Notes under the pieces: generated by a model | The model's input: the letters and a program-made list of their open reading frames with translations, nothing else | Databases searched by the model: none | What the model was told of the DNA's origin: nothing | Translations under genes and position numbers: made by a program | Origin: Williamsia sp. DF01-3 | Lineage (GTDB): Bacteria; Actinomycetota; Actinomycetes; Mycobacteriales; Mycobacteriaceae | Reading direction: 5' to 3' | NCBI RefSeq assembly: GCF_023051145.1 | Contig: NZ_JALKFS010000005.1 | Location: 5,163,733-5,227,732 of the forward strand | DNA length: 64,000 bases | In this document: piece after piece, positions 10,707 through 20,848 of the stretch | Position numbering within the stretch: the first letter of the stretch is position 1 | Layout of the letters: every line of letters starts with the position of its first letter

Positions 10707-12188
10707 ATGCAGCCCGCCACCAGTTCGACACCCAGCGCTCTGGTCACCGGCGCCACCGGTTACATCGGCGGCCGCCTTGCACCACGCCTGATCGAACGTG
10801 GCCACGATGTGCGGGTACTGGCACGGACTCCGGACAAGCTGAAGGGCGCGCCCTGGGTCGGCAGCGCGAAGGTGATCAAGGGCGACCTCAGCGACAAGGC
10901 GTCGCTGGAGAATGCGTTCACCGACGTCGACGTGGTCTACCACCTCGTTCATTCGATGGGTGGCGCCAAAGACTTCGTCGCCGAAGAACGCCGATCGGCA
11001 GAGAACGTGGTGGAGGCCGCGCGTAAGGCGGGTGTGTCCCGGATCGTCTACCTTTCCGGACTGCATCCCTCTGGCGTGCAACTGTCCGAGCACCTGAGTT
11101 CACGCACCGAGGTCGGCGAAGTCCTGATGGATTCGGGCATCGAGACCATCGTGTTGCAGGCCGGTGTCGTGATCGGTTCCGGCTCGGCGTCCTTCGAGAT
11201 GATCCGGCACCTCACCGAGCGTCTACCGGTGATGACCACCCCGAAGTGGGTGCACAACAAGATTCAACCGATCGCCGTTCAGGACGTCATGCACTACCTG
11301 ATGGAAGCCGCGACCGCGAAGGTTCCCGAGTCCCGCACGTGGGACATCGGCGGCCCCGACGTCCTCGAGTACGGCGACATGATGCAGATCTACGCCGAGG
11401 TTGCCGGGCTGCGCAAGCGCAAGATGATCGTGATCCCGTTCTTGACACCGTCGCTGGCGAGCAACTGGGTCGGTACCGTCACCCCAATTCCTGGTGGACT
11501 TGCCCGTCCCCTGGTCGAGTCACTCGAGCACGACGCCATCGCCTCGGAGCACGACATCGACGACGTGATCCCGCCGCCGGAAGAGGGATTGACCACCTAT
11601 CGCACGTCCGTCGAGTTGGCGCTCGCCCGGGTGGGACGCGGTGAGGTCGAGATCTCCTGGTCGAATGCATCGCCCACCGCGGCCCCCTCCGAGCCGATTC
11701 CCTCCGACCCGGAATGGGCCGGTGAAGAGGCGTACGTTGATGCCCACACCAGCCACACCGTCGCGACCGCGGCGGCTGTGTGGAAGGCGATCGAAGGACT
11801 CGGCGCCGAAAAGGGCTGGTACGGAACGGCCCCGGCCTGGAAGTTGCGCGCACGAATCGACCGCGCGGTCGGCGGGCCCGGATCGTTCGGGGGCCCGAGC
11901 AAGCAAGGCACGCCGACTCCCGGCGACGACCTCGAATGGTGGCGCGTGGAGACAGTGGAGCCCGAACACACGTTGCGGTTACGGTCACAGATGCGGTCGC
12001 CGGGCACGTCGTGGCTCGAATTCCGCATCACGGCAACAGAATCCGGTAGCGAGCTCGAACTGCGCACGGTGTTCTATCCGCGCGGCATTGTGGGACGTGT
12101 CTACTGGTATGCCCATTTGCCGGCTCATCGCGCGGTGTACCGCACGATGACACGGAACATCCTGCGCGAGGCAGAGAGATCAGTCTGA
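10707..12188 (+). CDS. NAD(P)-binding epimerase-like protein fused to DUF2867
   Basis: This 493-residue, two-domain protein has an atypical SDR/epimerase domain at residues about 1-300. Its dinucleotide-binding motif is VTGATGYIGG, followed by VYHLVHSMGG and IVYLSGLHPSG. The second domain (about 330-493) matches DUF2867, a START-like fold (VWKAIEGLGAEKGWYG, WLEFRITATESGSELELRT). This fusion is common in actinobacteria and annotated as NAD(P)H-binding oxidoreductase; its substrate is unknown. The ATG at 10707 is preceded by CGGAGCG. There is no operon partner. Confidence 0.8.
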   Translation: MQPATSSTPSALVTGATGYIGGRLAPRLIERGHDVRVLARTPDKLKGAPWVGSAKVIKGDLSDKASLENAFTDVDVVYHLVHSMGGAKDFVAEERRSAENVVEAARKAGVSRIVYLSGLHPSGVQLSEHLSSRTEVGEVLMDSGIETIVLQAGVVIGSGSASFEMIRHLTERLPVMTTPKWVHNKIQPIAVQDVMHYLMEAATAKVPESRTWDIGGPDVLEYGDMMQIYAEVAGLRKRKMIVIPFLTPSLASNWVGTVTPIPGGLARPLVESLEHDAIASEHDIDDVIPPPEEGLTTYRTSVELALARVGRGEVEISWSNASPTAAPSEPIPSDPEWAGEEAYVDAHTSHTVATAAAVWKAIEGLGAEKGWYGTAPAWKLRARIDRAVGGPGSFGGPSKQGTPTPGDDLEWWRVETVEPEHTLRLRSQMRSPGTSWLEFRITATESGSELELRTVFYPRGIVGRVYWYAHLPAHRAVYRTMTRNILREAERSV

Positions 12189-12310
12189 TCTGGCTTTGAC
12201 CGTTTGAACGAGTGCTCTCTTCCACTCGACCTCCCGTCGACGGCGACGGGGTGACGCCGGTGGTGATCCGGTCGAAAACCTCGTGGTCGCGGTCAGAGAT
12301 CCACCTGTAG

Positions 12311-12511
12311 ACCTGCCGCCGATCTATCGACGGTGATGTCGGATTCTCGCCAGCACCGGGTCGGCTCGGCTCAAAGCTCGTCGACGAACTGTTCCCTCGC
12401 GAGCGCCACGCCCACGGCGAACTTCTGTCAAACCTCGGACTTGACCGCGACCGAATCGTCGAATCGCTCGCCACCCTGACAGCAGCCGCGCACAACGCAT
12501 ACGGTGGTTAA
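12311..12511 (+). pseudogene. Possible gene remnant in the left part of the accessory island
   Basis: An open stretch of 66 codons ends in TAA but has no plausible start. The translation reads like real protein (SKLVDELFPRERHAHGELL, NLGLDRDRIVESLATLTAAA). The pattern resembles the second half of a Clp N-terminal repeat, where a helix is followed by LG-x-D-x-x-x-V. The resemblance is weak and judged by eye. It lies in a 615-base region (12189-12803) that otherwise holds only repeats. I treat it as a decayed fragment. Confidence 0.25.
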
Positions 12512-12518
12512 ATCGACC

Positions 12519-12564
12519 CCTACCAACGGGTTGACAAGCTGACATGACACAACCATGGTTGACG
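12519..12564. repeat. Imperfect 46-bp direct repeat, copy 1
   Basis: This segment matches 15332-15377 at 33 of 46 positions without gaps. Shared blocks are CCTACCA, CGGGTTG and ACATGAC. The two copies enclose the four small genes 12804-15208. It could be a decayed attachment site related to the left end of the recombinase module, because copy 2 leads directly into that end. Confidence 0.45.
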
Positions 12565-12573
12565 CCTCATACA

Positions 12574-12615
12574 GTTGCGGCGCAATATTTTTCGTCATCA
12601 GTGATGAAACGCAAC
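12574..12615 (+). repeat. Island palindromic repeat, copy 1
   Basis: The core 12590-12615 has perfect 6-bp arms TCATCA and TGATGA around G and aligns without gaps with cores at 18917 and 19577 (20 of 26 positions each). A flank with TGCGGC and an AT-rich spacer precedes it, as in the 18.9-kb copy. Consensus core: TTYCGTCAYCANNGAYGRAA. It is intergenic. Confidence 0.5.
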
Positions 12616-12772
12616 AGCCGAGAGGTTCACCGTTAGGGCCACCGAAAGACGGCAGCATCGACACGCGGCTTGATGTGCCGTCTGGTTGGTTCCGGCCAAG
12701 CAACGCTGGCGCTCCAACTCGCGTCTACTCACAAAGGTGATGTCAAGCTGCAAACTGCGGTCGCCTGGCTCG

Positions 12773-12802
12773 AATAATCGATTATTACTGTACAGTCGAT
12801 TA
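12773..12802. promoter_or_regulatory. Nested palindromes in the GntR gene promoter (probable operator)
   Basis: AATAATCGATTATT (12773-12786) is a perfect 14-bp palindrome and ACTGTACAGT (12787-12796) a perfect 10-bp palindrome directly after it. TAATCGA (12775-12781) and TCGATTA (12796-12802) also pair as 7-bp arms. The cluster touches the ATG at 12804, the usual place for autoregulation by a GntR dimer. It is markedly AT-rich against the local background. Confidence 0.6.
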
Positions 12803-12803
12803 T

Positions 12804-13475
12804 ATGGAGCCAACCGAAACGCCGGGACCACCTTCGTCGAAAACGTACGAGTGGTTGCGTGCGGCCGTTTTGCACGGCGATGTGCCTCCTGGCGGCGCAC
12901 TGAAACCGCAGGAGCTCGCCGCAGCGAGGGGCGTGAGCCTGTCGGTGATCCGAGAGTGCCTGTTGCGCCTGGTGGGGGAAGGCCTGGCGGAGCGACTGCC
13001 GAACCGCGGATTTGTGGTTCCCCAGGCAGGTGATGACCGGTGGCAGGTTGTCGCGGAGGCGCGGTCGGTCGTTGAGCCGACCATGCTGCGAATGTCAATA
13101 GAGCGTGGTGATCTTGAATGGGAAGCACGGGTGAGCGCTGCACACCACCGCCTGGCAAATACACCCGGATACGAACATGAGGACGACGTCCACTACTCGG
13201 ACGCATGGGCGAGTGCCCACTACCGCTTCCATCGGACGCTGCTCGATGCGTGCGGCAACGACGTCCTGCTGGACACTTTCGATCGGCTGTGGACTGCGAG
13301 TGAACTCTCTCGCCGCTGGTCAGCGTCCAGCAACCGTGATCGCGACGCGCTCACCGAACATCGACAACTCAAAGAACTCGCTATGAACAGGGCCGGCGAA
13401 GCGGCCGCCGCTGCCCTAGCAGCCCACATCATCGGAACCACCAATGGCCTCGATAACCCAAGGAGCACAACATGA
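12804..13475 (+). CDS. GntR-family regulator with FCD-type domain
   Basis: This 223-residue regulator has an N-terminal winged HTH (YEWLRAAVLHGDVPPGGAL, then ELAAARGVSLSVIRECLLRL) and an all-helical C-terminal FCD-like domain. His residues in YRFHRTLLDACGN and the later LTEHRQL resemble the metal/ligand-binding positions of that domain. The operator-like palindrome cluster lies immediately upstream. Its last codons overlap the ATG of the SCO6745-family gene by four bases (ATGA), so the two form one operon. The effector is unknown. Confidence 0.82.
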   Translation: MEPTETPGPPSSKTYEWLRAAVLHGDVPPGGALKPQELAAARGVSLSVIRECLLRLVGEGLAERLPNRGFVVPQAGDDRWQVVAEARSVVEPTMLRMSIERGDLEWEARVSAAHHRLANTPGYEHEDDVHYSDAWASAHYRFHRTLLDACGNDVLLDTFDRLWTASELSRRWSASSNRDRDALTEHRQLKELAMNRAGEAAAAALAAHIIGTTNGLDNPRSTT

Positions 13476-14329
13476 TGCATGCCACCGAGACGTTTGAACC
13501 CACATCGCAGCTGGACCTCGGCGCTGTCCGCGATGCGGCTGCAGCTGTCACTGCGGCCCACCTGTTCGTATACCTCGCCCCCGAGTCCGCCGACGAGGCG
13601 GCCAAGCTGGGTGTAACCGAAAGAGGGCCCCGCTATTTCGCATTTCGATCTGCCGCTCTCGGTGCGGTTCCATGGCAGGTCACCGCGGCAGCGTTTTATA
13701 ACTTCAGTCCGCGAGCGGTCCAGGCCATGACGGGTGTCTGGGATTATGCGTCGCCCCAGCAATGGCAGGCCGCCCGCTTTCGAGCGGTCGACCGAGCCAT
13801 GCGGCGGGCCGGTGTGACCCTGTCTGCCCGCCACATCGCCGAGGCCCGATCCCTGCTTGACCTTGTCATCGAAGCCGCCGACTACGCCGGCAAACCTCTG
13901 GCGGCCGCGAACGCGGCGGTTCCGTTGCCGTCCGATCCGCTGCTCGCGTTGTGGCAGCAAATCACCGTAGTCCGCGAATGGCGCGGGGATGCGCACCTCG
14001 TAGTGCTCGCCGATAACAACCTCGGACCCTGCGAATGCACCGTGATGCAGGGCGCGACCGGCCGCGTCCCAACCGCGCTCTTGCGAGCAACCCGACTGTG
14101 GAACGACCACGAATGGGCAGCCGCGGCAGCGTCTCTCACCGCAAGAGGGTGGCTCAACATCGACGGCACAGTCACCGAGACGGGCACCGCGGCCCGCGAA
14201 CAAATCGAGATCGAAACCGACCAGCATTCCGCGGCCCTGTGGGCACCGATCGGAAGTACCGGTACCCGACGACTGGCCGAACTACTTACCCCGATAGGCA
14301 AAGCGTTCGCCGCTGACGCACCGTTCTGA
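13472..14329 (+). CDS. SCO6745-family protein
   Basis: This 285-residue protein matches the actinobacterial SCO6745 family, which has a conserved helical N-terminal part and a C-terminal winged-helix-like part of unknown function. Visible landmarks are RGPRYFAFRSAALGAVPWQV, AAAFYNFSP, WDYASPQQWQAAR and the C-terminal WTARGW-like segment SLTARGWLNIDGTVTETG. It is translationally coupled to the GntR gene. It has no predicted membrane segment or signal peptide. Function cannot be assigned. Confidence 0.7.
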   Translation: MMHATETFEPTSQLDLGAVRDAAAAVTAAHLFVYLAPESADEAAKLGVTERGPRYFAFRSAALGAVPWQVTAAAFYNFSPRAVQAMTGVWDYASPQQWQAARFRAVDRAMRRAGVTLSARHIAEARSLLDLVIEAADYAGKPLAAANAAVPLPSDPLLALWQQITVVREWRGDAHLVVLADNNLGPCECTVMQGATGRVPTALLRATRLWNDHEWAAAAASLTARGWLNIDGTVTETGTAAREQIEIETDQHSAALWAPIGSTGTRRLAELLTPIGKAFAADAPF

Positions 14330-14464
14330 GCATCCACCGGGCGGGTGGGCATGGAGAGCGGTACCAGCACGGAGGCGTCTTCGGTCTCCGCAACCTGACG
14401 TACCGATCCGGAGCAGGCCGCGATCTGGCGGTGACTTACGCGTGCGGACAATGTCTGTATCCAC

Positions 14465-14740
14465 ATGATCATCGTTTCCGGATACCTCACCGTGGACCCG
14501 ACCGACCGACCGCACTATCTCGACGGCTGCGCCGAGGTGGTCCGGTCGGCTCGCGCCGCCCCCGGGTGCATCGACTTCGCACTCGGGGCGGACCTCGTCG
14601 AACCAGCTCGAATCAACGTGTACGAACGCTGGGCGACCGAGCAACAGTTGCATGATTTTCGTGGATCCGGCCCGGACTCCGAGCAGGCCACCGCGATCAT
14701 CGACGCCGACGTTCGCGAGTTCACGGTGCTGGACGCATAG
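14465..14740 (+). CDS. Antibiotic-biosynthesis-monooxygenase-domain (ABM) protein
   Basis: A 91-residue single-domain protein with the ABM ferredoxin-like pattern: IIVSGYLTVDP at the start, GCIDFALGADLVEPARINVY in the middle and WATEQQLHDFRGS near the end. Such dimers act as cofactor-free monooxygenases or haem-binding proteins. ATG at 14465 has only a weak ribosome site. It is not tightly linked to a neighbour. Confidence 0.75.
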   Translation: MIIVSGYLTVDPTDRPHYLDGCAEVVRSARAAPGCIDFALGADLVEPARINVYERWATEQQLHDFRGSGPDSEQATAIIDADVREFTVLDA

Positions 14741-14827
14741 CTCCGCCCAGCCGTCGGTCGCGAGGGTCTGACGTATCACGAATCTGTTGGTCGCTTAAAG
14801 ATTTGGGTCTGAGGCTGAGTGCGCGTT

Positions 14828-15208
14828 TCACAGTTGTTGGAGTCGAGCTCGCAGTAGGCAGAACTCGTTGCCCTCAGGGTCGGCGAGCACACGCCATGAT
14901 TCTTGCCCGGTCTGACCAACGTCGACCGGGCGAGCACCGACGTGTAACAGCCGCTCGAGTTCAGCATCATGATCGCGATCGGTCGCGTTGACATCGATGT
15001 GCAGACGGGATTCTGACTTCCTGGGCTCATCGGTGCGGGACAGGATCATCGTCGGCTGCACACCGCCGAACCCGGCCCGCGGACCGATCTCGACTGAGCC
15101 ATCAGCTTCGTAGCCCAGCACAACAAATTCCAAGACTTCGCACCAAAACCGAGCCAGCACCTCAGGGTCGTGACACTCGAGCACCAGCTCGCTGATCCGA
15201 CAGGCCAT
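14828..15208 (-). CDS. VOC (glyoxalase-fold) protein
   Basis: A 126-residue vicinal-oxygen-chelate protein with the two-module beta-alpha-beta pattern: ISELVLECHDPEVLARFWCE in the first half and RVLADPEGNEFCLLR in the second. His and Glu residues in these blocks are the usual metal-ligand positions. Small actinobacterial proteins of this kind are annotated as glyoxalase-like with unknown substrate. It lies convergent to the ABM gene and just left of the recombinase module. Confidence 0.75.
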   Translation of the reverse strand: MACRISELVLECHDPEVLARFWCEVLEFVVLGYEADGSVEIGPRAGFGGVQPTMILSRTDEPRKSESRLHIDVNATDRDHDAELERLLHVGARPVDVGQTGQESWRVLADPEGNEFCLLRARLQQL

Positions 15209-15331
15209 CAGGCGCCACCTACTTTCCCATCGGAACTACGATCACAACAGCCACAGGACTAGCAAACTCCCAGCATCCGAATTGTTTGGATCGTATCGAG
15301 CGGGACAGCGCGGTGTCGAGCAATGTTTGCT

Positions 15332-15381
15332 CCTACCAGCGGGTTGTCATGTTTACATGACGTAACATAAGTTACCGGCGT
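15332..15381. repeat. Putative left end of the recombinase module; copy 2 of the 46-bp repeat
   Basis: 15332-15377 is copy 2 of the imperfect repeat first seen at 12519. Within it GTCATGT and ACATGAC (15346-15352, 15355-15361) form perfect 7-bp arms with a 2-base spacer, and GTAAC/GTTAC (15362-15366, 15371-15375) form another pair. GTTACCGGCGT at 15371-15381 recurs exactly at 18594-18604 beyond the third module gene. Paired arms of this kind are typical of tyrosine-recombinase core sites. The rest of the 357-base gap (15209-15565) shows nothing I can name. Confidence 0.5.
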
Positions 15382-15565
15382 AAAACTCTCGGGAGTAGTG
15401 GTAGGTGCGGTTACTGCCGTCTACCTGGGATGATGGGGTTTGCGCTGGTGGGCGGCGGGGTTGGCTGGCGTGGTGTCGGCGCCGCGGATGTGATGCTTGT
15501 GCGTCGGTCCAGCGCCCTGTAGGTTTCTTGCATTAGATGCAGGTTTCCACGGGTCGGAGGTCGGC

Positions 15566-16702
15566 GTGGACGGTGTCCCGGGATTCGTTCCGCGGTTGTT
15601 GCGCGACGGTGAGGTCGGCCTGTTCCGTGCCGAGGACCGCGTGTTTGAAGCAATGGTCGAGGGTTGGCGGGCGCAGATGCTGGCGCGTGGGCTGACGAGA
15701 GCAACGATCGACGGGCGCTGCGGGGTGCTGCGCCGGTTCCAGGAGTTCGCCGGGACGTTCCCGTGGTCGTGGAGGCCGGTCGATCTGGATGACTACATGG
15801 CTGGGCGGCGCTCGGGTGAGAAGCCGGTGAGCTGGACGACGCTGCGTTCGGACAGCAATGCCATCGCGATGTTCTGTGCCTACGTCTCGAGCTCGAGTTA
15901 CGGGTGGGGTGCGCTGTGCCAACGGGTCTTCGACGATGTTCCGGCGCAGATCGCGTTCGAGTGGAACACCCCGCGGCACACCTGCGAGGATGCTGTTCCG
16001 GCTGGCCGCCGGGCCTTCACGGCCACGGAGCTGCAGAGACTCTTTGATGACGTGGACGACCGGGTCGATCGTGAGTTCGCTGCTGGGAGTAAGCGCTGGC
16101 TTCCCCTGTTGCGGGACTCGATCGCGTTCAAGGTCTGCTACGCCTTTGGGCTTCGGCGTCGCGAGGTGGCGATGCTGGACGTGCAGGATTTCGGCCCCAA
16201 CCCGCATGTGCCTGCGTACGGCGACTTCGGCGCGGTGACCGTCCGATGGGCCAAAGGCACCACCGGGTCGGGGCCGCGACGACGCACCGTGTTGACGGTC
16301 CCGGAGTTCGACTGGGTGGTTGACCTGCTCCGATTCTGGATCACCGAGCGTGGCCGGCGGCACTTCGCCACCGCTGACCGATCGGCGGCGCTATGGCCGA
16401 GCGAGCGCGCCGAGCGGATAAGAGTGGGTAGCTTGAGTGATGCCTTCGCTGCCGCCCGCGAGGGCGCCGACTTGCCGAAAGAGCTCGGACTGCACTGCCT
16501 GCGACACTCCTACGTCACGCACTTGATCGAGGCCGGCTACGACCCGGCGTTCGTGCAGACTCAAGTCGGTCATGCCTATGCGTCGGTCACCGGGCTGTAC
16601 ACCTCGGTCGGCAACGATTTCAAACAGAAAACCATCCAGCACATGATCGCTTCGCGGCTGGACGGCCACGGCAGGAAGCAGGACGGAGACGCTGATGGCT
16701 GA
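15566..16702 (+). CDS. Tyrosine recombinase/integrase, catalytically complete
   Basis: This 378-residue site-specific recombinase has a SAM-like core-binding domain (about residues 30-120) and a C-terminal catalytic domain. Catalytic residues are visible: Arg in YAFGLRRREVAML (about 196), Lys in VRWAKGTTG (about 230), His-x-x-Arg in LGLHCLRHSYVTHL (about 309-312), GH about 335, and nucleophile Tyr in VTGLYTS (about 344). I chose the GTG at 15566 after CGGAGG; the frame extends upstream to 15497 with poor sequence. It overlaps the HTH gene by eight bases. It is likely to move or resolve the element whose ends flank these genes. Confidence 0.85.
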   Translation: MDGVPGFVPRLLRDGEVGLFRAEDRVFEAMVEGWRAQMLARGLTRATIDGRCGVLRRFQEFAGTFPWSWRPVDLDDYMAGRRSGEKPVSWTTLRSDSNAIAMFCAYVSSSSYGWGALCQRVFDDVPAQIAFEWNTPRHTCEDAVPAGRRAFTATELQRLFDDVDDRVDREFAAGSKRWLPLLRDSIAFKVCYAFGLRRREVAMLDVQDFGPNPHVPAYGDFGAVTVRWAKGTTGSGPRRRTVLTVPEFDWVVDLLRFWITERGRRHFATADRSAALWPSERAERIRVGSLSDAFAAAREGADLPKELGLHCLRHSYVTHLIEAGYDPAFVQTQVGHAYASVTGLYTSVGNDFKQKTIQHMIASRLDGHGRKQDGDADG

Positions 16703-17018
16703 GCAACGACGCATCGGGTATCGCTGGAATCTGCGGACGCAGATGGCGCAGCGCAACCTGTGGAAGAGCACCGAACTGGTGCCGTTGTTGAGGGCTCGGG
16801 GCATCAACCTGTCCGAGAGTCAAGTCTACCGGCTGGTGACCGGCACACCAGAGCGGATCCCGGCACGCACGTTCGCCGCGCTCTGCGACATCCTCGACTG
16901 CGAACCCGGCGAGTTGTTCGAGCCGTTCGTGGAGATGCGGGCAGCGGCCACCGCCCAGGCGCCGAAGCGGCCGGAAGACCTGGGGGTGGCACCCGGCCAG
17001 CCGATCGCCCCCGGGTGA
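16695..17018 (+). CDS. Small HTH protein of the recombinase module
   Basis: This 107-residue protein has a Cro/XRE-type HTH at about residues 25-75 (ELVPLLRARGINLSESQVYR, PARTFAALCDILDCEPGELF). The C-terminal tail is Ala/Pro-rich. Overlap with the integrase stop and a 38-base gap to the next gene indicate one transcript. By position it may act as a repressor or as a recombination directionality factor; neither is shown by sequence alone. Confidence 0.75.
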   Translation: MAEQRRIGYRWNLRTQMAQRNLWKSTELVPLLRARGINLSESQVYRLVTGTPERIPARTFAALCDILDCEPGELFEPFVEMRAAATAQAPKRPEDLGVAPGQPIAPG

Positions 17019-17056
17019 GACTCGTCCGGGACGACAACGAGGACTGACCGATACCG

Positions 17057-18532
17057 ATGGCCAGGCCCCGCAAACCCGACGACCCGGACCTACGTCGCGT
17101 GTGTCCGTGTGATCGCTGCGGCTTGGGCTACCCGCTGGTGGTCACCTGGGGCCCGGAGGATCAGATCTGCGGCTACTGCTACCAGCAGGCCAAACGCACC
17201 CGCGGCACCTGCGACTGCGGCCACATCGGCGTCTTACCGGGCCGAGTAGATGGGCGCCCGGCCTGCCGGGCGTGCGCCCAGATCACCCTCAACATCGATT
17301 GCGTGCGCTGCGGCGCCGAGGACGAGATCTACCGCGCCGGCCTGTGCTGGCCATGCGCACTGAGCGAGACCGTCGACGGACTGCTGACCAACCCGGACAC
17401 CGGCACCATCGCCGAGAGGCTTATCCCCCTGGCTGAGGCGTTGAAATCGATGAAACGCGCCAACAGTGGACTGACCTGGATCCGCCAGCGGCACGTGACC
17501 GACTTCCTGAAACAGTTGGCCACCCTCCCGGAGCTCACGCACGAGGCGATCGATGCACTTCCACGCTCGCGCACCCGCGACTACGTGCGCGGGCTCCTAG
17601 TCGAGCACGGTGGCCTGCCCCGACGTGATGAGCTGCTTGTCCGCTACCAAGCCTGGGCGGACACAGCACTGGAGAGGCTGACCGAGGACACCAACCGGGC
17701 CGTCATTGACCGCTATATCCGCTGGCACCATCTACGGCGCATGAACAAGATGGACCCCGTCCCCCACGGCACCTTCCTGCGCAGCAAGCAGACCGTCACC
17801 GTCGCGATCAACTTCCTCAACTGGCTCGGCGAGCGCGACATCGCGCTCGCCGACGTCGGCCAGGGCGAGGTTGACGCCTGGATCGCCGGCGGGCCGACCA
17901 CGCGACTGCTCGTCGATCGGTTCCTCGGCTGGGCCATGGACACCAAGAACGCCCCACAAGGGCTCACCGTGCCCCGCCATCGCCGCGGTAACAGCACCAC
18001 ACTCAGCGCCACCGACCAGGCCGCCGCCCTGGACCGAATAGTGGACGGCGACACCCTGACCGCACGAGACAAGGCCGCGGCGATTCTAGTCCTTGTCTTC
18101 GGCCAACAGATCCAAGATATTGCCGCGCTGAACTGGGACGACATCACCGTGACCGAGGACCTGGCGACCATTACGCTCGGCAGCGGCCCGATCGTGTTGC
18201 CCGCCCCGCTCGACGGGCCGTGGCGTGAACTCCTGGCTAACCCTGGCCACGATCAGACCGCCGCTCACCCGAGAAGCAACTGGGTCTTCAGAGGGCATTC
18301 CCCCGGCATGCACATCGATCCGATGCACCTACGCCTCCGGCTACGAGACCACCTCGTCAGCGCCCGCGCCGCCCGACTCGGCACACTGCATGAACTCAGC
18401 AAGACCGCCCCGGCCGCCATCATCGCCGATGTCCTGGGCTATCACCCATCGACCATTGAGCGCCACGCTGTTGACGCGGCAGGTACGTACGCCGAATACA
18501 TCGCCGCCGTACGCGAGTACGGCCAGAGGTGA
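17057..18532 (+). CDS. Zinc-ribbon protein with degenerate tyrosine-recombinase fold
   Basis: This 491-residue protein has an N-terminal cysteine-rich region (residues about 15-105: CPCDRCG, CGYCYQQ, CDCGH, CRACAQ, CVRCG, CWPCA), which looks like several zinc ribbons. The middle has an integrase-like core-binding pattern. The C-terminal part keeps the recombinase fold outline (AAILVLVFGQQIQDIAALNW, about 340-360) but has Gln where the first catalytic Arg should be. The HxxR box is replaced by LHELSKTAP (about 443-451); GYHPSTIERH and a Tyr (GTYAEYI) remain. It is probably an accessory DNA-binding partner of the active integrase upstream. It could also be a decayed recombinase, but its intact length argues for retained function. 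Confidence 0.7.
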   Translation: MARPRKPDDPDLRRVCPCDRCGLGYPLVVTWGPEDQICGYCYQQAKRTRGTCDCGHIGVLPGRVDGRPACRACAQITLNIDCVRCGAEDEIYRAGLCWPCALSETVDGLLTNPDTGTIAERLIPLAEALKSMKRANSGLTWIRQRHVTDFLKQLATLPELTHEAIDALPRSRTRDYVRGLLVEHGGLPRRDELLVRYQAWADTALERLTEDTNRAVIDRYIRWHHLRRMNKMDPVPHGTFLRSKQTVTVAINFLNWLGERDIALADVGQGEVDAWIAGGPTTRLLVDRFLGWAMDTKNAPQGLTVPRHRRGNSTTLSATDQAAALDRIVDGDTLTARDKAAAILVLVFGQQIQDIAALNWDDITVTEDLATITLGSGPIVLPAPLDGPWRELLANPGHDQTAAHPRSNWVFRGHSPGMHIDPMHLRLRLRDHLVSARAARLGTLHELSKTAPAAIIADVLGYHPSTIERHAVDAAGTYAEYIAAVREYGQR

Positions 18533-18536
18533 TTCT

Positions 18537-18631
18537 GCGGCGAATTACCGAGCCATCGGTAACAGGGGAAATAGGTAACAGGGAACAAGTACTGTTACCG
18601 GCGTGGAGAGGGCCACAGAGTAATTCGCCGC
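18537..18631. repeat. Nested inverted repeats at the putative right end of the recombinase module
   Basis: The outer arms GCGGCGAATTA (18537-18547) and TAATTCGCCGC (18621-18631) are perfect. Inside, GGTAACAG occurs twice in direct order (18558, 18574; 16-bp period) and pairs with CTGTTACC at 18592-18599. GTTACCGGCGT at 18594-18604 is identical to the left-end sequence at 15371. The structure starts four bases after the stop of the third module gene. It could act as att site, transposon end or terminator; the shared 11-mer favours an element end. Confidence 0.55.
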
Positions 18632-18698
18632 TCGAGACACCGCGATCAGATCGCCTACTCCCGACTTACGAACACCCGCTCCTGCCAGCATCAATTGG

Positions 18699-18733
18699 GC
18701 GGCAACGTAATTAGTCACCGGTGACGAAATGTA
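18699..18733 (+). repeat. Island palindromic repeat, copy 2
   Basis: GTCACCGGTGAC at 18714-18725 is a perfect 12-bp palindrome. It is preceded by GCGGCAACGTAATTA, as in the 18.9-kb copy, and followed by GAAAT. It lies in the gene-poor stretch 18533-19035. A 32-codon frame at 18772-18870 in the same stretch has no recognisable similarity and no ribosome site. Confidence 0.45.
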
Positions 18734-18902
18734 GTCCGTTTCGCGGCGCTCGTATGGCAGCATGCACAGGAATGGTTGATGTACTGATCGCGGAGCCCGG
18801 CGAGCTCCCTCGTCTGCGACTGGCGCCCCACGGATCTCTGGTAGGCAGCCACCGGCGCAGTCCGAAATAGCCAATCTCCTGCCACGTAGATCTATTATCT
18901 AC

Positions 18903-18942
18903 TGCGGCAAAACGTATTCCGTCACCAAAGACGGAACGCAAC
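18903..18942 (+). repeat. Island palindromic repeat, copy 3
   Basis: TTCCGTC and GACGGAA (18917-18923, 18930-18936) form perfect 7-bp arms. The 26-base core ending at 18942 matches the core at 19577 at 21 positions. The GCGGCAAAACGTA flank corresponds to that of copy 2. Confidence 0.5.
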
Positions 18943-19035
18943 CCTAGTCTCGGTGGTGTCGTACGTCTACAGAGATCGTCCCGACGGTGTATTCCAATAT
19001 TCCTTGCTGCCGCCCCCTCGCCGTAGGATCTGGCG

Positions 19036-19497
19036 ATGATCGACAAAGAGCTTGCCACTGTCCTCGACGCGAACCGTACGGCCCTGATCGGCTCGGTGGC
19101 CCGCTTGACGGACGCTCAAAGCCGTTCTCGCTTGGTGCCTTCACTGACCACTCCGATTTCACTTGTCAAACATTGCGCCGCGGCGGAAAGGGTCTGGTTT
19201 CAACGCACCGTCGCGGGTCTTGCGGAGGCCGAGTGCGACGGCTACGCGGCGGGCGACGACCGCGGATGGCTGGTGGATCCCGAGCAAACGCTCGCAGAGG
19301 TGATCGCAGAATACGAAGCTGCTGCTGACCTTTCCCGACGCATCGCGCAAGGACCTGAGCCGGCCGACCGATTCGTTCACTACCGCCGCGGCGAGGTGAC
19401 CTTCCACTGGATAGGGCTTCACATGATCGAAGAGCTGGCACGGCACGCGGGCCACGCCGACATCCTCGTCGAACAGATACTCGCCGCCCCGCAGTAG
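19036..19497 (+). CDS. DinB-family (DUF664-like) protein
   Basis: This 153-residue four-helix protein of the DinB/YfiT type has metal-ligand histidines of the family in SLVKHCAAAERVWF and HMIEELARHAGHADIL, the hallmark C-terminal motif. Members act as thiol-dependent (mycothiol or bacillithiol) transferases or remain uncharacterised. Palindromic repeat copies lie on both sides (ending 18942, starting 19577), so the gene sits like a single-gene insert within the island. Confidence 0.8.
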   Translation: MIDKELATVLDANRTALIGSVARLTDAQSRSRLVPSLTTPISLVKHCAAAERVWFQRTVAGLAEAECDGYAAGDDRGWLVDPEQTLAEVIAEYEAAADLSRRIAQGPEPADRFVHYRRGEVTFHWIGLHMIEELARHAGHADILVEQILAAPQ

Positions 19498-19576
19498 CCA
19501 CCCGCGAGGCCTCCCTCTGCCCGGATTCAACCCGAGGTAACCGATCTGTCGACGTAATAGGCTTCGCTGCCGTAGG

Positions 19577-19602
19577 TTTCGTCACCACTGACGGAACAGA
19601 AC
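19577..19602 (+). repeat. Island palindromic repeat, copy 4
   Basis: CGTCA and TGACG arms around CCAC, within a 26-base core matching the 18917 copy at 21 positions and the 12590 copy at 20. It lies between the DinB gene and the next small gene. Confidence 0.5.
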
Positions 19603-19646
19603 CTCACTGCAGCGGATCTGCGTCACCCATGTGGCAAGGTTTAGTG

Positions 19647-20081
19647 ATGACGACACTGCGCCAGCGAGTCGGGGCACGCCGCTGGCGCTTTATCATTCCT
19701 GGGGCGATTCTGGTGGCGCTGGTTTCTGCCGGCATCATCGTCATCGGCAACGAGACGTCGGACCCTGCGGGCCCATCGCTTGCCGCTGCTCTCGAAATTG
19801 TTTGGTCGCCCGGAACGCGCAGCGCGGACACTGGTCCGTTGACTGGCACCGTGGCGGGCGGCAACTGTAGGAGCAAAGTCGATCCAGGGGTTCCGTTGTA
19901 TTACGGCGAGTATCTGGCGCCCTCAACGCTGCGAGACTCCGTGGGAAGTCGCCCAGGCGTGTTCGCGACGGCCCACCTACCCAACGACACCTACGCCGCG
20001 ATAGCTTGCGAGCACGGCGACCGTAGTTTGCTCAAGTCACTTGCCGATCACGGATGGGCGCTCGGCTACGCCATCGAATAG
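19647..20081 (+). CDS. Small secreted or membrane-anchored protein of unknown function
   Basis: The ATG at 19647 gives 144 residues. A basic N-terminus (TLRQRVGARRWR) leads into one hydrophobic segment (FIIPGAILVALVSAGIIVIG, about residues 14-33), so the rest faces outside. Two Cys (GGNCRSK and AIACEHG) could form a disulfide. I recognise no family. An upstream in-frame ATG at 19629 is less likely. Confidence 0.5.
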   Translation: MTTLRQRVGARRWRFIIPGAILVALVSAGIIVIGNETSDPAGPSLAAALEIVWSPGTRSADTGPLTGTVAGGNCRSKVDPGVPLYYGEYLAPSTLRDSVGSRPGVFATAHLPNDTYAAIACEHGDRSLLKSLADHGWALGYAIE

Positions 20082-20188
20082 TCGCATGCAACGATTTGAA
20101 CTCAGATTCAGGTTCAGGTGAAGCGACGGCCCATGGCTGCAGTGACGGCAGCAGCACGGGCCCGGGGCGTCTTGATACGGGCTTTCTC

Positions 20189-20848
20189 CTACAGCTTCCA
20201 GCCCAAAGTGTGTGCCAGGTCGATAATCTCGCGGTCGATGACGGGACGGTCATCCGGTTCGGACTGCCACCGTCCTGTCATATCACCGACAGCGTAGATC
20301 GCGTCGATGAGCGGTCCTCCGCCACCAACGTCATCGCCGCCGTAACTCCCTGCGTTGCTGTTCCAGATATGTCCGCCAACCACGGGGTGGACAAAGCCGT
20401 CTCCGATACGTGCCGACCACATGCGGCTACAGAGACGGCGCCCCGCGGCCGCCAGCCCATCCCCAAGGTCGCCGCCAAGGTTCAGATACAGCTCCGCGCG
20501 AAGCCGAGCCTCTTCGTCGGGTAGATCTATAGCCCCGGCGACCTGCCGACCAAGCTGCCATCGAGAAACGATGCGGCCGACGTGTTCGGTGACCGCCGGC
20601 GGAACAAGAGGCACCGGGCTGCCGAGGGCGGTCTCATCTGACCGGTACGCCGCCTTGAATCGGCTGCAGGCATACGAGAACGAGTTCGCAGCGCCTTCGT
20701 CCATCGCCCAAAGGGTGGCTTCAAAAACAAAATTGTCGAACTGGTCCCTGCGTTTCGGCACGCACCTACGCAGTGTTCCGACGTCGGCGAGACCGCCAGA
20801 CCGCCGGAACCATTCGAGAACCTTCCCTTCAACCTCCCCGATATACAT
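20189..20848 (-). CDS. Hypothetical protein of the accessory island
   Basis: An intact frame of about 219 residues from the ATG at 20848 (an in-frame start at 20872 is also possible). It is soluble and without a recognisable domain. Landmarks are SYACSRFKAAYRSDE in the middle, GRRLCSRMWSARIGDGFVHP and a C-terminal IDLAHTLGWKL. Codon use is like the surrounding high-GC genes, supporting coding, but the function is unknown. It ends 107 bases from the convergent small gene. Confidence 0.5.
   Translation of the reverse strand: MYIGEVEGKVLEWFRRSGGLADVGTLRRCVPKRRDQFDNFVFEATLWAMDEGAANSFSYACSRFKAAYRSDETALGSPVPLVPPAVTEHVGRIVSRWQLGRQVAGAIDLPDEEARLRAELYLNLGGDLGDGLAAAGRRLCSRMWSARIGDGFVHPVVGGHIWNSNAGSYGGDDVGGGGPLIDAIYAVGDMTGRWQSEPDDRPVIDREIIDLAHTLGWKL

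Follow-up and report, generated by a model that had tools for sequence, protein, structure and literature searches.

A three-gene element of Williamsia sp. DF01-3 that probably homes to dif-like Xer sites with its own recombinases

Related site-specific elements and the Williamsia module

Several classes of small site-specific elements resemble a three-gene module that we have analysed in Williamsia sp. DF01-3: Tn554-type transposons, the SEs and GInts, elements that use the dif site of the host XerC/XerD system (integrative mobile elements exploiting Xer, IMEX) and recombinase-in-trio (RIT) elements. The module lies in a stretch of 64,000 nucleotides, the window, whose coordinates are used below unless a contig of the source genome (C1, C2 or C5) is named. 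It encodes IntA, a complete Xer-like tyrosine recombinase, a small helix-turn-helix (HTH) protein, and IntB, in which zinc ribbons are combined with a degenerate Xer-like recombinase fold. That the module is a genuine mobile element is very probable. We think it likely, with a probability of roughly 0.8, that it is a small, cargo-free member of an actinobacterial site-specific transposon family that homes to dif and dif-like sites on plasmids and in arrays by means of its own recombinases.

In the available excerpts of the literature, which include an actinobacterial Tn554-like class (van Houdt 2012, PMC3414803), Tn554-type transposons (TnpA, TnpB and TnpC) are small and site-specific, encode two recombinase-fold proteins, mostly together with a small protein, and have a fixed target that is not duplicated. 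A fixed target without duplication is also what we find at the dif edge. The proteins differ: instead of two RHRY recombinases there is one, since IntB lacks the box-I arginine and the nucleophile tyrosine; IntB carries zinc ribbons and has about 490 residues, against 611-828 there; the small protein is of the Cro/C1 type (HTH_26); and the target is dif. The SEs and GInts, as excerpted from PMC10214605 and PMC5385486, are likewise site-specific and share an operon of complete tyrosine recombinase(s) and a degenerate recombinase-fold protein (Tfp, GinC). However, they have four core genes with two complete recombinases, as opposed to three genes and one complete recombinase here, where the target is dif. 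They leave a 6-bp footprint that is copied from the donor flank to the right junction; no extra 6 bp was apparent here in comparison with sites of diverged relatives.

The IMEX (CTXphi, GGI, LME-1) share dif as landing site, but in the parts of PMC5357621 and PMC9765430 available they use a dif mimic and host Xer, while our element has recombinases of its own, is inserted outside the arm and has no dif at its far end. RIT elements (excerpts of PMC10214605 and PMC3414803) are also three-gene modules in multiple copies; there, all three genes encode recombinases with a catalytic tyrosine and the terminal repeats are 34 bp long, whereas here one recombinase is complete, one is degenerate, the third protein is an HTH protein, and the only such repeat found is a 10-bp subterminal inverted one. 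The first-pass annotation of this DNA had set the module apart from RIT elements and Tn554, and this fits, as the gene sets that define them are not present. The relaxase or transfer genes of integrative conjugative and mobilizable elements were not found inside the element either: its three genes fill the 3.3 kb. In comparison with integrons, the repeat sites here are dif-based, and integron integrase models score 46.1 bits against IntA, with a cut-off of 265.

Ends, target and genes of the element

The source genome (G000) contains three near-identical copies of the element: one in the window, one at C5:635808-639117 and one at C5:1605633-1608942 (minus strand). The segment common to all three begins with AAAACTCTCGGGAG (15382) and finishes with ...CTCCTGCCAGCA (18690), the first two A being assignable to either element or target; it spans 3309 bp in the window and 3310 bp in the other two copies. 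One of these other copies has a single substitution, and the window copy is one base shorter than both through a deletion at about 17008, which leaves its HTH protein with 107 residues as against 117. A 96% identical copy, split by an IS3-type element, lies on a Rhodococcus ruber plasmid.

The first-pass annotation had placed the ends elsewhere, at two copies of the 11-mer GTTACCGGCGT thought to bracket the module. The 11-mer does occur at 15371-15381 and 18594-18604; however, because the common segment is 15382-18690, its left copy falls outside the element, where it forms one arm of a dif-like Xer site, in a flank that reads TTATCGGCTC, TTATCGGCGT and GTTACCGGCGT in the three copies, and its right copy falls 86 bp inside. 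Direct repeats of this length are no signal in themselves: the region 15332-18631 contains two exact direct 11-mer pairs against a mean of 4.2 under a first-order Markov model, and 169 of 200 simulations gave at least two. The three-copy boundaries and this chance-level count together rule out the 11-mer as a terminal repeat. Relatives lacking it at the corresponding place had been named as evidence against these ends, and in the Arthrobacter/Pseudarthrobacter relatives L050 and L051 the right copy is indeed absent; this refutes the proposed ends, but mobility is unaffected by it. The GTAAC...GTTAC inverted repeats described beside the 11-mers are present, and the left one is the centre of the dif-like target. 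A perfect 12-bp inverted repeat, GCGGCGAATTAC/GTAATTCGCCGC, is seen inside the right end of the element (18537-18548 and 18620-18631, 71 bp apart).

To the left of each copy lie two common arms around a 6-base centre, TGACRTAA-N6-TTAYCGGC. Read as its reverse complement, this motif is, judged by sequence, the actinobacterial dif, the XerC/XerD site, which had gone unnoticed in the first-pass annotation; in the excerpt of PMC3025954 at hand, the dif of Frankia alni is the reverse complement of the target motif. The window target has 3 mismatches of 21 to ACTTGACATAA-N6-TTATCGGCGT, and the dif pattern has 14 matches in the source genome at up to 2 mismatches, compared with none for a reversed control. 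We name the arms XerC and XerD on the assumption that they are arranged as in E. coli. In all three copies the element starts one to three bases beyond the XerC arm and leaves the dif-like site whole. Uninterrupted sites corresponding to each of the three loci are found in congeners (G006:C1:54102; G007:C39:2085 and G001:C1:172222; G008:C12:86940). Compared with these sites, which come from diverged relatives, the junctions are ambiguous by 1-3 bp, with no target duplication evident and no extra 6 bp. At the other end, we searched 30 modules downstream of IntB, over as much as 2.6 kb or until the locus ended, and found no dif with 4 or fewer mismatches.

As first described, the three genes are tightly linked, and they are co-directional, in the order IntA, HTH protein, IntB. 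IntA has 378 residues if read from the GTG at 15566, the start corresponding to that annotated for its R. ruber relative; a TTG at 15497 would give 401 residues. Numbered from this GTG, R197, K230, H310, R313, H336 and Y345 are invariant in 27 aligned sequences (the alignments hold 27 of 32 IntA and 27 of 33 IntB sequences, near-duplicates and truncated or frameshifted ones being excluded). The observation that only one recombinase keeps its catalytic residues is borne out by the IntB alignment, in which the box-I arginine is replaced (Gln350 in at least 90%) and the nucleophile position has no tyrosine. The N-terminal part of IntB has 12 conserved cysteines; the Xer-like fold, at about residues 209-490, comes from a VIA-align structure comparison, and the Pfam Phage_integrase match, at 0.0022, falls short of the cut-off. 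Neither an Rfam search of 12000-20500 nor a search of phage records with IntB at 1e-10 gave a match.

Relatives at dif and the competing explanations

We used IntB as a query against 201 genomes of the same genus, family and order and obtained matches in 46. Leaving aside short fragments, the source-genome copies and the truncated contig L014, the longer matches gave 39 loci with flanks (L319-L354, L039, L165 and L166), in 25 of which IntA lies 1.5-1.65 kb upstream of IntB, as in the window. A dif-like site adjoins the left end in 20 of these 25 trio-layout loci versus 1 of the 14 others (L166); in these 14, IntA is absent or elsewhere, and in 10 of them IntB is less than 31% identical. For 19 of the 20 the site lies within about 400 bp upstream of IntA with at most 5 mismatches of 21 (5 in L322, at most 4 in the rest), and in the remaining one, L330, IntA lacks its N-terminus and a dif with 2 mismatches lies just before what is left of it. 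Shuffled loci (1.22 Mb) served as a control and gave no match at up to 4 mismatches, one at 5 and five at 6.

Approached from the opposite direction, a search with the dif pattern gave 146 loci, of which 13 carry IntA and/or IntB. Of 33 modules in which IntA was located, 32 have a dif-like site within 700 bp, the exception being Kocuria L049 with a degenerate site; 7 of the 33 were found via dif itself, L052 and L053 represent one and the same element, and six loci in which IntA was not located are not counted. Most targets are close to both arms (up to 21 of 21) and keep the 6-base centre, chromosomal-type dif included. An alignment of both flanks with Modestobacter L175 shows about 4.8 kb inserted at dif in L265. 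Homing to dif holds for most, not all, of the members examined.

The family uses both edges of the site. Members like that of the window (8 rows) adjoin the TTATCGGCG (XerC) edge and those of a sister clade (19 rows) the ACTTGACATAA (XerD) edge; on the IntB tree the edge label switches once, with support 100/99, and none of 500 shuffles was as low. In Rhodococcus qingshengii (L053) a single dif is flanked by two modules that point away from it, one on each side, and the pair in Kocuria L049, whose edge was assigned by eye, is laid out in the same way around its degenerate site. Plasmid pA of Paenarthrobacter ureafaciens AT carries a relative twice in tandem, with a repeat unit of 4714 bp, beside a single dif. 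A further record from this strain, pD (L375, NZ_CP094493.1), is deposited as a 4712-bp circle of IntA, the HTH protein, IntB and three small open reading frames only, and differs from the pA unit by just 2 bp, which lie at the junction. In Paenarthrobacter sp. YJN-5, and likewise in Arthrobacter agilis TMP24, one element occurs on two plasmids, beside dif sites that differ in sequence, and copies of about 4.3 kb with two extra open reading frames are found at different dif sequences in R. qingshengii. Right ends were set by comparison for the window copies, R. qingshengii, P. ureafaciens, YJN-5, A. agilis and, roughly, L265; an inverted-repeat search did not find those of the XerD-edge clade. 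The suggestion that the module is an unclassified mobile element therefore stands as to mobility, given the near-identical copies, the uninterrupted sites in congeners and the tandem copies of a relative, and fails as to its ends.

How, then, does the element come to lie at dif? That the target is dif, and that the second 11-mer at 18594 resembles a dif arm, would be expected of an IMEX-like element that carries a dif mimic and is inserted by host XerC/XerD, with its own recombinases serving, for example, in excision. However, IMEX leave a dif-type site at both ends according to the available parts of PMC5357621 and PMC9765430, and the right junction here has none; the element boundary lies outside the arm instead of within the 6-bp centre; inside pD no dif-like site is found at up to 6 mismatches, and the best match across its ends has 8 mismatches of 21; and the resemblance to a dif arm is missing in L050 and L051. 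We consider this explanation very unlikely. It is equally unlikely that the module is a two-recombinase transposon of the Tn554, SE or GInt type that recognizes a short AT-rich palindrome, with dif as its most frequent instance and the similarity to dif being incidental: members without dif in Streptomyces, GGATAA-N7-TTATCC beside a Nocardia plasmid copy and the degenerate target in Kocuria L049 are what it predicts, but it sits poorly with the close match of most targets to both arms and the conserved centre set out above.

The fixed place beside dif in many chromosomes and plasmids and the Xer-like nature of the proteins could also be read as a resident dimer-resolution system coupled to a site of its own, like single-recombinase Xer systems, and spread together with dif as a unit and not as a transposon. 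We hold this to be highly improbable, as identical or nearly identical modules lie beside different dif sequences (the three source-genome copies, R. qingshengii, YJN-5 and A. agilis), and uninterrupted sites, a tandem pair and patchy presence (IntA is in 2 of 9 genomes of the genus, our own included) all speak against it. What remains preferred is a transposon that homes to dif with its own recombinases. Its target and its multiplicity are well supported by sequence comparison, while the protein roles, the movement itself and a circular intermediate are what we infer.

A number of observations weigh against this preferred reading. No movement has been observed. The congener sites match the left flanks well and the right side only through a repeated block (P3/P4, see below), with right-side query ends at 549, 1539, 1539 and 2548, so that the anchoring is one-sided. 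Five of the 25 trio-layout loci (L336, L340, L343, L350 and L039) have no dif-like site. In a sample of 11 plasmids, such a site was present at up to 5 mismatches in four and at 7 mismatches in one, with a different palindrome in another; three Streptomyces members have none, and L382 and L387 lack IntA. The IntB fold match has a high root-mean-square deviation and many recombinases score nearly equally, and the roles of IntB and the HTH protein are assigned from homology and fold. Finally, pD is weak evidence for a natural circle because the deposited record starts and stops exactly at the element boundary, like an unresolved assembly repeat unit; it could be a genuine circle or have arisen in assembly from the pA tandem pair. 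The Streptomyces plasmid members L388 and L389, which have no dif, have CCTGTACCNCAACTACTACC in common ahead of the left end, and this may be a different target.

In the mechanism that we propose, IntA would make and break the strands, probably via a circular intermediate. IntB would bind a dif arm and/or the element ends, setting edge and orientation, and may join the synaptic complex without cleaving DNA itself; the HTH protein would regulate expression or serve as a directionality factor. With dif left whole, the element would have a conserved and tolerated landing site on many replicons. The dif-homing elements of PMC5357621 and PMC9765430 rely on host Xer, as far as the available parts of these papers describe them, while here one active and one inactive Xer-like protein are encoded. 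Our literature search found neither Xer cassette arrays in Actinobacteria nor an element that targets dif with recombinases of its own, a weak negative since subscription journals were mostly uncovered. Two clades at opposite edges would make the target choice of a tyrosine recombinase testable by clade swaps. Since the elements mark dif and dif-like sites, they might be of use in directing DNA to a location that is conserved and tolerated across many replicons of Actinobacteria.

Table 1. Coordinates of the element, its genes and neighbouring sites in the window
Feature	Position	Strand	Remarks
Mobile element (very probable)	15382..18690	+	Ends from three near-identical copies in one genome and uninterrupted sites in congeners
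IntA, tyrosine recombinase, catalytically complete	15566..16702	+	Pfam Phage_integrase, 1e-16; catalytic residues; best PDB sequence match XerD
Cro/C1-type HTH protein	16695..17018	+	Pfam HTH_26, 1.1e-15; C-terminus cut by 1-bp deletion
IntB, zinc-ribbon protein with degenerate Xer-like recombinase fold	17057..18532	+	
dif-like Xer site, the target	15355..15381	+	Outside the element; XerC arm abuts it; differs between copies
Right half of interrupted target (P3 ATTG..CAAT-like, P4 GTCACCGGTGACGAAA)	18691..18734	+	Flank, not element
Subterminal inverted repeat CTACTCCCGA, left copy	15389..15398	-	
Subterminal inverted repeat CTACTCCCGA, right copy	18655..18664	+	26 bp from right end
Second 11-mer	18594..18604	+	Inside the element; dif-arm-like; without counterpart in L050 and L051
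dif-like array site	12545..12614	+	Covariance model 66.7 bits; sequence in the model's training set
dif-like array site, degenerate	19533..19601	+	Covariance model 33.2 bits
Further array site, weak	18882..18941	+	Covariance model 13.9 bits, E 0.22

Arrays of dif-like repeats

The source genome also contains arrays of sites that consist of a dif-like core (P2) followed by two conserved palindromic blocks, ATTG..CAAT (P3) and TTTCGTCACCAGTGACGAAA (P4). A covariance model trained on 16 of these sites has 36 matches in the genome at E up to 0.5, and at 0.01 it matches in 18 of the 201 genomes, among them all 9 of the genus (our own counted). The 24 source-genome sites at E up to 0.01 form 18 neighbour pairs within 40 kb, 16 of them on the same strand. 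On contig C5, 14 of 15 sites have a neighbour within 40 kb, against a random mean of 2.9 and a maximum of 10 in 2000 trials. Similar sites are found on seven Gordonia plasmids and one Rhodococcus fascians plasmid, while an exact search for the 20-base P4 in viral contigs gave none.

The same-strand clustering might suggest an integron with its own IntI. We do not favour this as the main reading, since the repeat core proved to be dif, and the matches to the core pattern (at least 118 matching stretches) nearly all to be from Actinobacteria (78 of the 80 matches listed). Since IntA is present in only 2 of the 9 genomes of the genus, the module is not what moves the arrays in general; host Xer would be the obvious candidate. 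The arrays suggest cassette exchange in Actinobacteria and are worth a separate study. A possible if rather doubtful extension is that they form an actinobacterial Xer-driven, integron-like system, in which host XerC/XerD would swap cassettes at dif, and that the transposon is a specialized passenger whose degenerate Xer protein reads the dif arms, the clades splitting the two edges between them.

Of 290 ends of segments shared between array regions, 42 lie no more than 15 bp from a site, versus 1.3% of random positions; these ends are not independent of one another. Clusters of sites on the same strand with genes between them are seen at C5:1221.8-1241.3 kb, C5:1569-1605 kb, C1:10-60 kb and C2:125-137 kb (mostly same-strand). 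A segment of 2027 bp, 99.46% identical, occurs at C5:1224803-1226829 and C5:3208047-3210073. Only one of its two ends coincides with a site, where it breaks at the dif XerC arm. The second of these places looks like a plain dif without the P3 and P4 blocks, which is perhaps the chromosomal dif.

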